A stretch of 51,060 bases of DNA from Vineibacter terrae (GTDB lineage: Bacteria; Pseudomonadota; Alphaproteobacteria; Reyranellales; Reyranellaceae): assembly GCF_008039615.1 (NCBI RefSeq), contig NZ_VDUZ01000062.1, forward strand, positions 1 to 51,060, read 5' to 3'. Shown here in pieces: positions 9,483 to 45,998 of the stretch. The notes beneath the pieces are model-generated. The model did no database searches. It was not told the origin of the DNA and saw nothing but the letters and a program-made list of their open reading frames with translations. Made by a program: the position numbers and the translations under genes. Every line of letters begins with the position of its first letter. The stretch's first letter is position 1.

Positions 9483-9567
9483 CTTCATGGTGAGCTTGTC
9501 GAACCATGAAGCGTCTCGCACCAGCCGCCGTGCGCGGCCTTCATGGTTCGACAAGCTCACCATGAAG
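9483..9567. repeat. REP-like inverted pair (copy 1)
   Basis: Two 29-base hairpin units in opposite orientation separated by about 27 bases. Each unit has 9-bp arms CTTCATGGT / ACCATGAAG around an 11-base loop (GAGCTTGTCGA in one orientation), and the second unit is the reverse complement of the first. Same family as 17788-17894, 32881-32965, 33271-33719 and 38185-38291. It lies between divergent genes. Confidence 0.9.
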
Positions 9568-12283: not shown

Positions 12284-12369
12284 GTCATCCCGAGCGCAGC
12301 GAGGGATCTCCCGCGGCAAGGCGCACGGTGCGCCATTCGCGGGAGATCCCTCGCTGCGCTCGGGATGAC
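12284..12369. repeat. GTCATCCCGAGCG palindrome, copy A
   Basis: Long inverted repeat whose arms begin GTCATCCCGAGCGCAGCGAG and continue GGATCTCCCGCG, with a ~20-base centre. It fills the gap between the convergent DUF1214 and MFS genes, so transcripts from either side would form the hairpin and it may serve as a bidirectional terminator. Copies B and C lie at 36598-36688 and 45906-45998. Confidence 0.9.
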
Positions 12370-17723: not shown

Positions 17724-17951
17724 TGATCTCTGTGTCTCTGTACTACTGACCTCAAGAATCTTCGCAAGCCGCGATGATTTTTGTAGCCTTCATGGTGAGC
17801 ACAGGTGAATGCGAAGCATTCACCGAGTCGAACCATGAAGGCGTCGCACGGGCAGTGGTGCGCCGCTTCATGGTTCGACAGGCTCACCATGAAGCGCTTT
17901 CCCCGCATTTGGTTGCGGCCAGAGCTGCGCTGTGTCTCTGTGGTTTGCCTT
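17724..17951. repeat. Long composite direct repeat, copy 1
   Basis: About 225 bases nearly identical to 38124-38350, in the same orientation. The outer part carries CTCTGTGTCTCTGTACTACT at the left and CTCTGTGGTT at the right; the inner part is the REP-like inverted pair described at 17788-17894. It fills most of the gap between the SMP-30 and Nudix genes. Confidence 0.9.
17788..17894. repeat. REP-like inverted pair (copy 2, with an extra inner hairpin)
   Basis: Same inverted pair as 9483-9567. The loop of the left unit holds an extra segment with its own hairpin GGTGAATGC / GCATTCACC (loop GAA). The identical enlarged form occurs at 38185-38291. Confidence 0.88.
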
Positions 17952-31954: not shown

Positions 31955-32866
31955 ATGCATCGACGCTCCTTCATGCTTTCGTCGCTGGCGACGGCCGGCA
32001 GCCTGCTGCCCGGCATGGCCGCCGCGGTGCCCGCGCCGCCCGCCAAGGGCTGGGGCTACGACTCCTATCTCGCGGCAATGAAGGCCTGCGACCGGCCCAC
32101 GACGCTGACCCGCGAGCAGTTCGATGTGGTGCGCGGCCGGCGCAGGGGCGCGCTGGCCACGATCGAGAGCGTGCTCAAGGCGCATTTCGGCGAGGCCGAC
32201 CCCAACGTGCTGCGCGCCTTCGACGAGGTGCCGCGCGAGTTCTACCACTACGATTTCGCGGCCCGCTCGGCCTTCGCCACCGTCGCCTACGAGCAGACGT
32301 CCAAGCCCTGGCGCATCGGCTTCGGCTCGGCGCTGTCGGATTATCGCGGCCAGGCCTACATGACGCAGCTGTGCAAGCCGACGGCCGACAGCGTGGCGCT
32401 GGAGGTCGGCACCGGCTCGGGCTTCCAGATCTCGGTGCTATCGCGCATCGTGAAGAAGGCCTGCTCGATCGAGATCGTCGAGCCGCTGGGCAAGGAGGTC
32501 GGCCGCATCTTCGCGCCGCTGGGCTACGACAATGTGCAGACCCGCATCGGCGACGGCTTCTTCGGCTGGCCGGAGGAGACCGGCGGCTTCGACCTGATCA
32601 TGGTGACCTGCGCCGCCCAGTTCGTGCCGCCGCCGCTGCTGGCCCAGCTCAAGCCTGGCGGGCGCATGGTCATCCCGATGGGCCAGCCCTTCAAGCGCGA
32701 GCAGTTCCTCTACGTCTTCACCAAGGACGAGGACGGCAAGGTCCACTCGCGCAAGGATGTCGGCGTCTATTTCGTGCCCATGACCGGCAAGATGATGGCC
32801 GACAAGAAGCCGGCCGCCGCCGACAAGCCCGCCACCGGCGGCGAGAAGCCGTCGGCGCCGCAGTAA
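31955..32866 (+). CDS. Exported protein-L-isoaspartate O-methyltransferase-like protein
   Basis: 303 residues from the ATG at 31955. The methyltransferase core has SAM motif I (VALEVGTGSGFQISVLSRIV), GDGFFGWPEETGGFDLIMVT and LLAQLKPGGRMVIPMG, the PIMT pattern, which methylates isoaspartyl residues for repair. Unusually, the N-terminus MHRRSFMLSSLATAGSLLPG is a Tat-like signal, which predicts a periplasmic location. The C-terminus is a Lys/Ala/Pro-rich tail (ADKKPAAADKPATGGEKPSA). In-frame ATGs also occur at 31901 and 31940; none has a clear binding site, and 31955 gives the cleanest signal peptide. Whether it is active outside the cytoplasm, where SAM is absent, is open. Confidence 0.82.
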   Translation: MHRRSFMLSSLATAGSLLPGMAAAVPAPPAKGWGYDSYLAAMKACDRPTTLTREQFDVVRGRRRGALATIESVLKAHFGEADPNVLRAFDEVPREFYHYDFAARSAFATVAYEQTSKPWRIGFGSALSDYRGQAYMTQLCKPTADSVALEVGTGSGFQISVLSRIVKKACSIEIVEPLGKEVGRIFAPLGYDNVQTRIGDGFFGWPEETGGFDLIMVTCAAQFVPPPLLAQLKPGGRMVIPMGQPFKREQFLYVFTKDEDGKVHSRKDVGVYFVPMTGKMMADKKPAAADKPATGGEKPSAPQ

Positions 32867-32880
32867 TAGCAGGACGTAGC

Positions 32881-32965
32881 CTTCATGGTGAGCCTGTCGA
32901 ACCATGAAGGCTACGCACGAACCGTGGTGCGCCCCGCTTCATGGTTCGACAAGCTCACCATGAAG
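32881..32965. repeat. REP-like inverted pair (copy 3), upstream of the GIY-YIG gene
   Basis: Inverted pair of 29-base hairpins as at 9483-9567; it ends 17 bases before the GIY-YIG start codon. Confidence 0.9.
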
Positions 32966-32982
32966 CTATCCTGAGATCTCCG

Positions 32983-33273
32983 ATGCCATTCTGGGTCTAC
33001 ATGGTGCGCTGCGCCGACGCGAGCTACTACGTCGGCGTTGCGCAGATTGACCTTGAGCAGCGCATCGCCGAGCACAACGCTGGAAAGTACGAGGGCTATA
33101 CCTACAAGCGACGTCCCGTCGAACTCGTCTGGTCGGAGGAGTTCCAGAGGGTGACGGACGCGATCGCCTCCGAGCGCCAGATCAAGAAGTGGTCACGCGC
33201 GAAGAAGGAAGCGCTGATCGCCGGTGACTGGGAAAGGCTCAAGCAGCTGGCGCGGTCCCGAAGCGCCCAATAG
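32983..33273 (+). CDS. GIY-YIG nuclease family protein, single domain (UPF0213-like)
   Basis: 96 residues, just one GIY-YIG nuclease domain. The signature is VYM (5-7, for GIY) and YVG (16-18, for YIG). Catalytic-site residues are present: Tyr6, Tyr16, Arg27 and His31 in EQRIAEH, and Glu64 in ASERQIKKW. Family enzymes cut DNA with one metal ion; single-domain members have been reported to be structure-selective or of unknown role. The frame is open through the upstream repeat from 32941, but MPFWVYMVRC at 32983 is the family start. The stop codon TAG (33271-33273) is formed by the first bases of the tandem repeat array. The gene is thus enclosed by REP-like elements on both sides, which suggests a link with their movement or upkeep. 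Confidence 0.93.
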   Translation: MPFWVYMVRCADASYYVGVAQIDLEQRIAEHNAGKYEGYTYKRRPVELVWSEEFQRVTDAIASERQIKKWSRAKKEALIAGDWERLKQLARSRSAQ

Positions 33274-33719
33274 CCTTCATGGTGAGCTTGTCGAACCATG
33301 AAGGCCTCGCACGGAACACCGGGCGTCGCTTCATGGTTCGACAGGCTCACCATGAAGCTGTTCTTGAGAGCGGCTGATACCCCTGCCCAATGGCCTTCAT
33401 GGTGAGCTCGTCGAACCACGAAGGCCTCGCACGGACCAACCGTGCGGCGCTTCATGGTTCGACAGGCTCACCATGAAGCTGTTCTTGAGAGCGGCTGATA
33501 CCCTGCCAAATGGCCTTCATGGTGAGCTCGTCGAACCACGAAGGCCTCGCACGGACCGACCGTGCGGCGCTTCATGGTTCGACAAGCTCACCATGAAGCT
33601 GTTCTTGAGAGCGGCTGATACCCTGCCCAATAGCCTTCATGGTGAGCTTGTCGAACCATGAAGGCCTCGCACGGAACACCGAGGGTCGCTTCATGGTTCG
33701 ACAGGCTCACCATGAAGCT
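33271..33719. repeat. Tandem array of four 120-bp units, each with a REP-like inverted pair
   Basis: Units begin at 33271, 33391, 33511 and 33631, exactly 120 bases apart; the last lacks the spacer tail. Each holds the inverted pair CTTCATGGTGAGC...ACCATGAAG and its reverse complement, then a spacer TTCTTGAGAGCGGCTGATAC and CCCAA. Units 1 and 4 resemble each other (TAGCC start, GAACACCG), as do 2 and 3 (TGGCC start, ACCGTGCGGC, and an A-C mismatch in the first stem). It fills the gap between the convergent GIY-YIG and rpsD genes. Confidence 0.97.
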
Positions 33720-33725
33720 ACAGGC

Positions 33726-34340
33726 TTAGCGGCTGTAGAACTCGACCACCATCGAGGGTTCCATCTGCACCGGGTAGGGCACGTCCGAGAGGCTCGGGGT
33801 GCGCAGGAACTTGCCCTTCATGTCCTTGTGGTCGACCTCGACATAGCCCGGCACGTCGCGCTCGGCGAGCTGGGTGGCCTCCAGCACGACGGTGAGCTGC
33901 TTGGCCGAGGCGGTGAGCTCGATCGTGTCGTTGTCGCGCACCTGATAGGAGGCGATGTTGACGCGCCGGCCGTTGACCTTGACGTGGCGGTGGCTGACGA
34001 GCTGGCGCGCGGCGAACACGGTGGCCGCGAACTTCATGCGGTAGATGACCGCATCCAGCCGGCGCTCGAGCAGGCCGATCAGGTTCTCGCCGGTGTCGCC
34101 CTTGCGGCGGATGGCTTCCTGGTAGTAGCGGCGCATCTGGCGCTCGCTGACGTTGCCGTAGTAGCCCTTGATCCGCTGCTTGGCCATCAGCTGCTTGCCG
34201 AAGTCGGTCGGCTTGGTGCGCTTGGCGCCATGCTGGCCGGGGCGGGTCTCACGCTTGTTGATGGGGCTCTTGGGCCGGCCCCACAGGTTCACGCCCAGGC
34301 GGCGGTTGATCTTGTACTTCGAATTCTCGCGCTTGCTCAC
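33726..34340 (-). CDS. rpsD: 30S ribosomal protein S4
   Basis: 204-residue S4, a primary 16S rRNA-binding protein that nucleates 30S assembly and helps decoding fidelity. The N-terminal [40 protein letters not shown] and the S4 RNA-binding fold [20 protein letters not shown] followed by [19 protein letters not shown] are all present. This is the usual alphaproteobacterial type without the zinc-binding Cys cluster. The start codon is GTG (34338-34340) with AAGGA upstream. As in many alphaproteobacteria it stands apart from the main ribosomal protein operon. The stop lies seven bases from the REP-like tandem array, whose hairpins may act as its terminator. Confidence 0.98.
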
Positions 34341-36597: not shown

Positions 36598-36688
36598 CCT
36601 GTCATCCCGAGCGCAGCGAGGGATCTCCCGCGAATGACGCACCGTGCGTTCCTCGCGGGAGATCCCTCGCTGCGCTCGGGATGACAGG
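36598..36688. repeat. GTCATCCCGAGCG palindrome, copy B
   Basis: Inverted repeat with arms starting CCTGTCATCCCGAGCGCAGC and running about 36 bases on each side of a ~19-base centre. It lies between the rhodanese gene and the ABC substrate-binding gene, both on the plus strand, so it could end one transcript before the next starts. Confidence 0.92.
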
Positions 36689-38038: not shown

Positions 38039-38350
38039 CCACAGAGACACAGAGGCACAGAGACAACACAGAGAACAAGGAGTTGCGCGCCTTCGGCGCG
38101 CCGTGGCGTCTTCCTCTGTGTAACCTCTGTGTCTCTGTACTACTGACCTCAAGCATCTTCGCAAGCCGCGGTGATTTTTGTAGCCTTCATGGTGAGCACA
38201 GGTGAATGCGAAGCATTCACCGAGTCGAACCATGAAGGCGTTGCACGGACAGTGGTGCGGCGCTTCATGGTTCGACAGGCTCACCATGAAGCACTCCTCC
38301 GCCATTTGGTTGCGGCCAACGGCTGCGCTGTGCCTCTGTGGTTCGCCTTC
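38039..38350. repeat. Long composite direct repeat, copy 2, with ACAGAG arms
   Basis: The part from 38124 is nearly identical to 17724-17951. On its left this copy has an extra arm, CCACAGAGACACAGAGGCAC (38039 onward), which pairs with CTCTGTGTAACCTCTGTGTC near 38110-38134, enclosing a GCGCGCCTTCGGCGCGC hairpin. The inner inverted pair lies at 38185-38291. Confidence 0.88.
38185..38291. repeat. REP-like inverted pair (copy 5, with an extra inner hairpin)
   Basis: Same enlarged form as 17788-17894, including the GGTGAATGC / GCATTCACC inner hairpin. Confidence 0.9.
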
Positions 38351-45905: not shown

Positions 45906-45998
45906 ACTGTCATCCCGAGCGCCAGCGAGGGATCTCCCGCGAATGGCGCACCGTGCGTCTTTCGCAGGAGATCCCTCGCTGGCGCTCGGGATGACAGT
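45906..45998. repeat. GTCATCCCGAGCG palindrome, copy C, with compensated insertion
   Basis: Same family as 12284-12369 and 36598-36688, but the left arm reads GAGCGCCAGCGAGG (one extra C) and the right arm CCTCGCTGGCGCTC (one extra G), so full pairing is kept. It lies between the convergent ligase and leucine-rich-repeat genes. Confidence 0.92.

Follow-up and report, generated by a model that had tools for sequence, protein, structure and literature searches.

The CGTC class of REPs was defined by Di Nocera et al. (2013; PMC3733652) as units with the tag CGTC and a stem of 8–9 bp that starts with AT and encloses a loop of 4–5 nt. According to the cited passages of that survey, the GTAG class alone had an enzyme, i.e., the RAYT, and the CGTC REPs apparently lacked a dedicated transposase, with no associated enzyme reported; the RAYTs of CGTC-positive species, among them Caulobacter crescentus, are described there as not flanked by or linked to CGTC units. 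The cited part of another study (PMC1839093) lists three small COG2827 endonuclease genes in C. crescentus, one of which has an SOS box and was read as having a possible role in repair. The main text of a 2025 REP survey (PMC12306157) uses none of the terms RAYT, nuclease, GIY, UvrC and transposase. A search of open-access titles and the beginnings of abstracts, with bioRxiv and most subscription journals outside its coverage, gave no link of GIY-YIG nucleases to REPs or REPINs among the matches listed.

The locus described here has the arrangement of a REP/REPIN system with a nuclease unrelated to RAYT. Like REPIN/RAYT systems, it consists of a nuclease gene flanked by inverted REP pairs, has many pairs without a gene, and shows repeats specific to each paralog. 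It differs in that the nuclease is of the GIY-YIG rather than the HUH/Y1 type, in that the element common to the repeats is not a GTAG tag but a GAG...TCGA core, and in that the RAYT genes of its own genome and of sphingomonads are without the window-type repeat. The encoded protein resembles the single-domain GIY-YIG proteins of UPF0213/COG2827 (YazA, YhbQ, BH0048) in fold, size and sequence; in contrast, yazA of Bacillus subtilis and a yazA-like gene of Radiobacillus lie among other genes without bracketing repeats. GIY-YIG is also a classic class of homing endonuclease. Free-standing members of that class share the nuclease type and the position of the gene within putative target repeats, but the window gene is a very small single domain with no intron or intein seen, and its targets would be multicopy REP hairpins.

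The window, i.e., the whole 51,060-nt stretch analyzed, is contig C62 of an 8.76-Mb genome (G000). Between a protein-L-isoaspartate methyltransferase (PCMT) gene on one side and rpsD on the other lies the GIY-YIG gene, enclosed by ten copies of a 29-nt unit that form one inverted pair upstream and four pairs downstream, the latter in a tandem array with a period of ~120 bp (Table 1). A first-pass annotation had described a 96-residue gene between one inverted pair and a four-pair array, starting 17 bases after the former and ending in a stop codon at the beginning of the latter; the coordinates of the start and of all ten units agree with this, and the TAG at 33271–33273 falls on the TAGCC directly ahead of the first array unit. 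An alternative in-frame ATG at 32941, within the repeat, would give a 110-aa ORF; the start at 32983 agrees with an alignment to the nearest relative (L043). The nearest relatives that carry a name are alphaproteobacterial. Two further inverted pairs in the window, GTCATCCCGAGCGCAGCGAGGGATCTC at 12292–12361 and 36609–36677, belong either to a variant of the REP family that brackets a second GIY-YIG paralog, on contig C10, or to a third family; no gene was seen to accompany them.

Table 1. Positions, strands and particulars of the features located in the window.
Feature	Position	Strand	Remarks
Gene plus repeats; no matching stretch in sister genomes G002 or G003	32822..33727	.	Borders approximate, from G003 alignment
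Single-domain GIY-YIG nuclease gene, 96 aa + TAG	32983..33273	+	KKWSRAKK motif; catalytic-type Y6, Y16, R27, H31, E64
REP unit, upstream inverted pair, left half	32881..32909	-	GAGC..GTCGA readable on + strand
REP unit, upstream inverted pair, right half	32937..32965	+	Gene start 17 bases further on
REP unit, array pair 1, left	33275..33303	-	TAG stop of gene in bases directly preceding
REP unit, array pair 1, right	33329..33357	+	
REP unit, array pair 2, left	33395..33423	-	
REP unit, array pair 2, right	33450..33478	+	
REP unit, array pair 3, left	33515..33543	-	
REP unit, array pair 3, right	33570..33598	+	
REP unit, array pair 4, left	33635..33663	-	
REP unit, array pair 4, right	33689..33717	+	
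Further inverted pair of window REP family, dispersed	9483..9567 (9483-9511 + 9539-9567)	.	
Dispersed lone unit, window REP family	17866..17894	+	
Dispersed lone unit, window REP family	38263..38291	+	
Inverted pair of second REP family (TCATCCCGAGCGCCAGCGAGGGAT)	45910..45994	.	Family bracketing the C10 GIY-YIG paralog

Folding with DNA parameters turned each of the five window pairs into one long hairpin of -36 to -40 kcal/mol, compared to shuffle means of -10 to -12 kcal/mol (z = -10.5 to -12.6). A lone unit folded into a stem of 9 bp closed by an 11-nt loop, GAGCTTGTCGA, and the conserved GAG...TCGA core is exactly this loop. We ran the genome-wide count of the unit that had been suggested in the first-pass annotation: there were 165 matches (87 + 78) to a 27-nt unit pattern at up to 3 mismatches and none to the reversed control, and the window repeat is therefore not a product of chance. 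Many of the 100 genomic places listed are opposite-strand neighbors ~55 bp apart. With short palindromic units, inverted pairs and many dispersed copies, the repeat has the properties of a REPIN (paired REP). No paper was found to contain a 14-nt core string when we looked for it.

The window protein matches the Pfam GIY-YIG profile (PF01541) above its cut-off, with 68.4 bits (E = 6.5e-19) over residues 3–75; this match and the catalytic-type residues place it in that family, with DNA cleavage as its predicted activity. By their roles in GIY-YIG proteins, we take Y6, Y16, R27, H31 and E64 to be catalytic-type. Their earlier description as intact is borne out by 32 aligned sequences, i.e., that of the window and 31 relatives, in which Y6, Y16, G18, R27 and H31 never vary and conservation of E64 reaches at least 90%; one relative (L099) lacks a Glu at the latter position. 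The motif KKWSRAKK is also invariant in the 32 sequences, an invariance that was partly selected for because the peptide seeds used to gather the relatives included it. The AlphaFold model of the protein is confident (pLDDT 92), and its best fold matches are two UPF0213 NMR structures followed by Slx1. NCBIfam and PHROGs named no family for the protein.

Comparison with sister genomes showed that the gene and its repeats occupy different places in two congeneric genomes. PCMT and rpsD adjoin in G003 and G002, with 16 and 140 bp respectively between the matched ends, so that the 0.9 kb of gene plus repeats is missing at this site in both; in G001 and G004, 3.9 and 2.7 kb of other sequence separate the two genes and the window gene is unmatched there. 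G003 and G050, to which the nearest relative L043 belongs, are apparently one assembly (identical coordinates); G003 has the gene at another place, where it encodes a protein 86% identical and has same-type units on both sides. The site in the window's own genome that matches this location (C14:83705-83890) is without the gene and has a pair of the second REP family. G000 and G003 hence have reciprocal empty sites for gene plus repeats; a target duplication could not be defined, and the difference may reflect gain or loss. No DNA-level orthologue of the gene was present in G001 (87% complete) or G002, and G002 has copies of the window repeat in at least two listed places.

We surveyed the flanks of related genes in the best 80 of 337 loci, gathered with peptide seeds that included KKWSRAKK; 56 are from Alphaproteobacteria, 16 from Bacteroidota and eight from elsewhere, mostly single MAG records of other phyla. 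Up to 250 bp from the gene, 13–16% of the sequence falls in inverted repeats, compared to about 1–3% further out. Hairpins with arms of at least 16 nt occur on both sides of 13/73 GIY-YIG genes (7/80 loci with incomplete flanks were left out), in contrast to 4/863 other genes of the same loci and 1/178 of those shorter than 500 bp. The flanks share a recurring core, GAGC-N2/3-GTCGA, which takes a split form in Bradyrhizobium (GAGGAG...GTCTCGA), and the stems around it vary between taxa. Counted with outward pairing required, REP units around the 80 genes reach 5.74 per kb at 0–150 bp and 1.82 at 150–300 bp, falling to 0.07–0.20 from 300 bp to 7 kb and 0.14 at 7–10 kb; past 500 bp the density is about 0.1 per kb. 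A unit lies within 300 bp in 71/80 loci under the same pairing rule and in 75/80 with the looser GAG...TCGA core. A locus in a record titled Frankia sp. RB7 (L076) has Bradyrhizobium-like flanking repeats, and the title may be wrong.

Since these core motifs had been picked after inspection of the flanks, we added a motif-free test that takes the longest stretch in one 250-bp flank of a gene with an exact inverted match in the other, with a threshold of 14 nt; this test and a set of plasmid genes mitigate the post hoc choice. The threshold was reached by 45/77 GIY-YIG genes (3/80 loci were dropped for short flanks) and by 0/500 control genes drawn from 845, in line with the earlier expectation that GIY-YIG genes of this clade would be flanked by such repeats more often than other genes. 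In sphingomonads, where we examined 67 of the 70 main-clade places (≥75 bits), 48/67 genes passed the test and 64/67 had GAGC-N2/3-GTCGA within 250 bp, pairing not being required; the nearest cores pointed toward each other, as + gene -, in 42 of the 52 loci with a core on both sides. Among the more distant sphingomonad paralogs, taken as the best 20 of 46 low-scoring GIY-YIG places with one 56-bit place in G058 left out, 12/20 passed and are bracketed by sequences resembling REP hairpins, and the GAG...TCGA core is absent beside all 20.

The plasmid set was independent of the seeds and comprised 11 of 22 plasmid matches. Inverted matches of at least 14 nt bracketed 5/11 genes, namely both from Methylobacterium and those from Sphingomonas parapaucimobilis, Shinella and Rhizobium; no bracketing repeats were seen in this comparison at the genes of S. 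paeninsulae, Radiobacillus, Acetoanaerobium and Salinivibrio or at B. subtilis yazA. Given these passes and failures, the repeat association is limited to some GIY-YIG clades rather than universal. Bracketing is found above all in Alphaproteobacteria and Bacteroidota. A GIY-YIG gene on a Planktothrix plasmid (L292) has as its neighbors one gene for a type IIL restriction enzyme and one for a DISARM helicase and shows, by eye, REP-like repeats similar to GTCATTCTGAGTGAAACGAAGAATC on both sides. Phage matches are also among the GIY-YIG search results.

Within the window's own genome, three of the four GIY-YIG matches are single-domain, and each of these three is bracketed by a different repeat. 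Besides the 165 copies of the window repeat, there are 97 copies of the repeat around the C10 paralog, TCATCCCGAGCGnnAGCGAGGGAT (≤2 mismatches; control 0), and the repeat of the C26 paralog is a long-loop form with just 3 exact copies, two of which bracket the gene. The fourth match (C91) is UvrC-like by its 679-aa frame; no REP was apparent there by eye, and a hairpin detector reported three GC-rich inverted repeats of 14–16 nt directly ahead of the domain. Among the sphingomonad loci, the 2-nt and 3-nt core types are mixed in only 3, and core type (A2/A3) requires 5 changes on the protein tree (58 labelled rows; 3 ‘mixed’ and 3 ‘none’ rows uncounted; L184, L205 and L217 left out), whereas 500 shuffles averaged 16.9 and never needed fewer than 10. 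Core type tracks the gene tree, and species relatedness has a part in this agreement.

Gene and repeat also co-occur across 149 sphingomonad genomes, of which 48 have the gene clade (≥75 bits) and 101 do not. Repeat excess, defined per genome as the count of GAGC-N2/3-GTCGARR over its reversed control, had a median of 85.5 in genomes that have the gene clade and 23 in those that do not (p = 2.7e-7, phylogeny ignored) and reached at least 200 in 11/48 and 0/101 genomes, respectively; at least 5 copies of a 16-nt core were present in 19/48 and 8/101. The expectations set out beforehand, that repeat abundance would go with the gene and that genomes lacking the gene would lack the repeat, are thus upheld in their general trend in sphingomonads and contradicted in particular genomes: G102, G099 and G152 have the gene with no repeat excess (-25, -9 and 0), and the repeat is frequent in G173, G061, G159, G191 and G130, where the gene clade is missing. 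G002, with no DNA-level orthologue, also has the repeat. In a separate count, four sphingomonad genomes from the survey of 80 loci had 86, 56, 17 and 6 copies of the flank core TCGAGCGNAGTCGAGA, and four Bacteroidota genomes had 33, 25, 8 and 6, with all controls at 0; G041 and G051 are the two with only 6 copies each, and the count was 0 in three genomes that have other kinds of repeat beside the gene. In a Flavobacterium genome (G046, that of L094), the flank core forms local tandem clusters at three places.

Canonical CGTC REPs do occur beside some of the related genes, among them two from Rhizobiaceae. The Shinella gene has two such units, 20 bp before its start and 125 bp after its end, and the Rhizobium gene has six, one 20 bp ahead of it, one 31 bp behind it and the other four arrayed downstream; with a stem of 9, a loop of 5 and a CCA tail, these units fit the published definition. 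The Rhizobium locus (L291 1451-2388, plasmid of Rhizobium sp. CIAT894), with one CGTC unit before the gene and five after it, has an array like that of the window. CGTC units that fit the definition also lie beside 3/20 distant sphingomonad paralogs, one of which is among the 12 that passed the motif-free test, and beside 0/23 RAYT genes, a contrast too small to weigh. In contrast, strict CGTC units within 300 bp were found at 0/67 sphingomonad main-clade genes and 0/80 relative loci, with 45 such units elsewhere in the 80 loci. We considered and rejected the identification of the window repeat as a CGTC REP: no window unit (stem 9, loop 11 nt, no CGTC tag) fits the definition, nor do the repeats of the C10 and C26 paralogs, and as the strict definition also fails at the main clade, we do not use that name. 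The window repeat's tie to CGTC REPs is one of analogy in arrangement.

Several other explanations of these observations were weighed. One is that a RAYT elsewhere, i.e., an HUH tyrosine transposase, mobilizes the repeats and that the GIY-YIG link is incidental. Y1_Tnp matches exist in 19/41 genomes searched, and the first-pass annotation, which had seen no RAYT, was right as to the surroundings of the gene and incomplete as to the genome, which has two weak matches elsewhere. RAYT presence (25 genomes) also goes with the sphingomonad repeat excess (median 88 compared to 31; p = 0.0017, phylogeny ignored). However, in genomes without a RAYT the GIY-YIG effect persists (median 74 with the clade and 17 without; p = 8e-6, phylogeny ignored), and no repeat unit lies within 500 bp of any of 23 sphingomonad RAYT domains (23 of 29 listed stretches examined), the one unit seen being further off in L180. 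The two RAYT-like Y1_Tnp genes of the window's own genome, L123 (G000:C74) and L124 (G000:C23), sit between terminal hairpins of their own that by eye are unlike the window repeat, and the 29-mer is absent from the 9- and 14-kb stretches examined at these genes. Inverted matches of unrelated sequence bracket 5/23 RAYT genes (400-bp flanks). A RAYT matching the distribution of the repeat had been named as an observation that would speak against a GIY-YIG role; in the stretches examined of the own genome and of sphingomonads, we found no HUH/Y1 transposase gene flanked by the window repeat, in agreement with the RAYT flanks devoid of CGTC units in CGTC-positive species reported in the cited passages of Di Nocera et al. 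(PMC3733652). On these flank tests we rejected RAYT as the mobilizer of the window repeats and regard this explanation as scarcely credible. A passive link, in which REPs accumulate between genes wherever small, dispensable ones lie, would fit with REPs being mostly intergenic, as stated in the cited part of the same survey. It is opposed by the rarity of two-sided hairpins at other genes of the same loci, small ones included, by the control genes, none of which had a 14-nt inverted-match bracket, and by the agreement of core type with the gene tree; after the comparison with other genes of the same loci we rejected passive accumulation as the main cause, and it is very improbable.

Two further explanations were weighed. 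As a selfish homing endonuclease, the GIY-YIG protein would cut REP sites and copy itself between units by break repair, with the repeats being targets that spread by other means. This would suit the nuclease class, the gene's position, with an inverted unit on either side as if it had been inserted into a REPIN (+ gene - in 42/67 sphingomonad loci), and its differing location in G000 and G003. However, only one of the four own GIY-YIG matches is associated with the window repeat despite 165 targets, and a larger repeat excess goes with the gene, an outcome not expected if the repeats were purely targets; we consider homing unlikely. A host structure-selective nuclease, similar to Slx1 or UvrC, could instead remove REP cruciforms, with the nearby REPs regulating the gene as terminator, mRNA hairpin or titration feedback. 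The fold matches to UPF0213 proteins and Slx1 point in this direction, as does the reading of Caulobacter COG2827 genes, one with an SOS box, as possible repair nucleases in the cited part of PMC1839093. Against hairpin repair stand the different private repeats of paralogs in one genome and the concordance of core type and gene tree, and feedback does not need bracketing on both sides; this explanation is distinctly doubtful.

We put at roughly 0.55 the probability that the GIY-YIG protein of the window is dedicated, as a nuclease, to a REP/REPIN family of its own. The best-supported account of such dedication is a RAYT-like role played by a different nuclease class, in which we infer cleavage and mobilization of the repeats from the genomic pattern. 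When the first-pass annotation proposed this role, it led to genomic predictions that have mostly turned out favorably, with the reservation that gene and repeats are each also found without the other. In the mechanism we propose, the nuclease would recognize its cognate hairpin, by the loop or as a cruciform, and would nick or cut it, after which repair or replication would copy the repeat pair to new sites. REPINs would then be the gene-less, non-autonomous form of a unit–gene–unit element, standing to it as REPINs stand to RAYTs, with an unrelated nuclease. A broader proposal, to which we give even odds, is that these loci represent a bacterial mobile-repeat system, present in several phyla and powered by single-domain GIY-YIG nucleases, that would supply the missing enzyme of GAG...TCGA and CGTC-type REPs; each nuclease lineage would recognize its own hairpin, and REPINs would be gene-less derivatives.

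Small GIY-YIG genes bracketed by REP-like hairpins thus occur in Alphaproteobacteria and Bacteroidota, with single records from other phyla. A protein of 96 aa and a hairpin of 29 nt make the question of the REP enzyme directly testable. REPs are widespread in bacterial genomes, and the GIY-YIG gene is a candidate for the missing enzyme of a large REP class.
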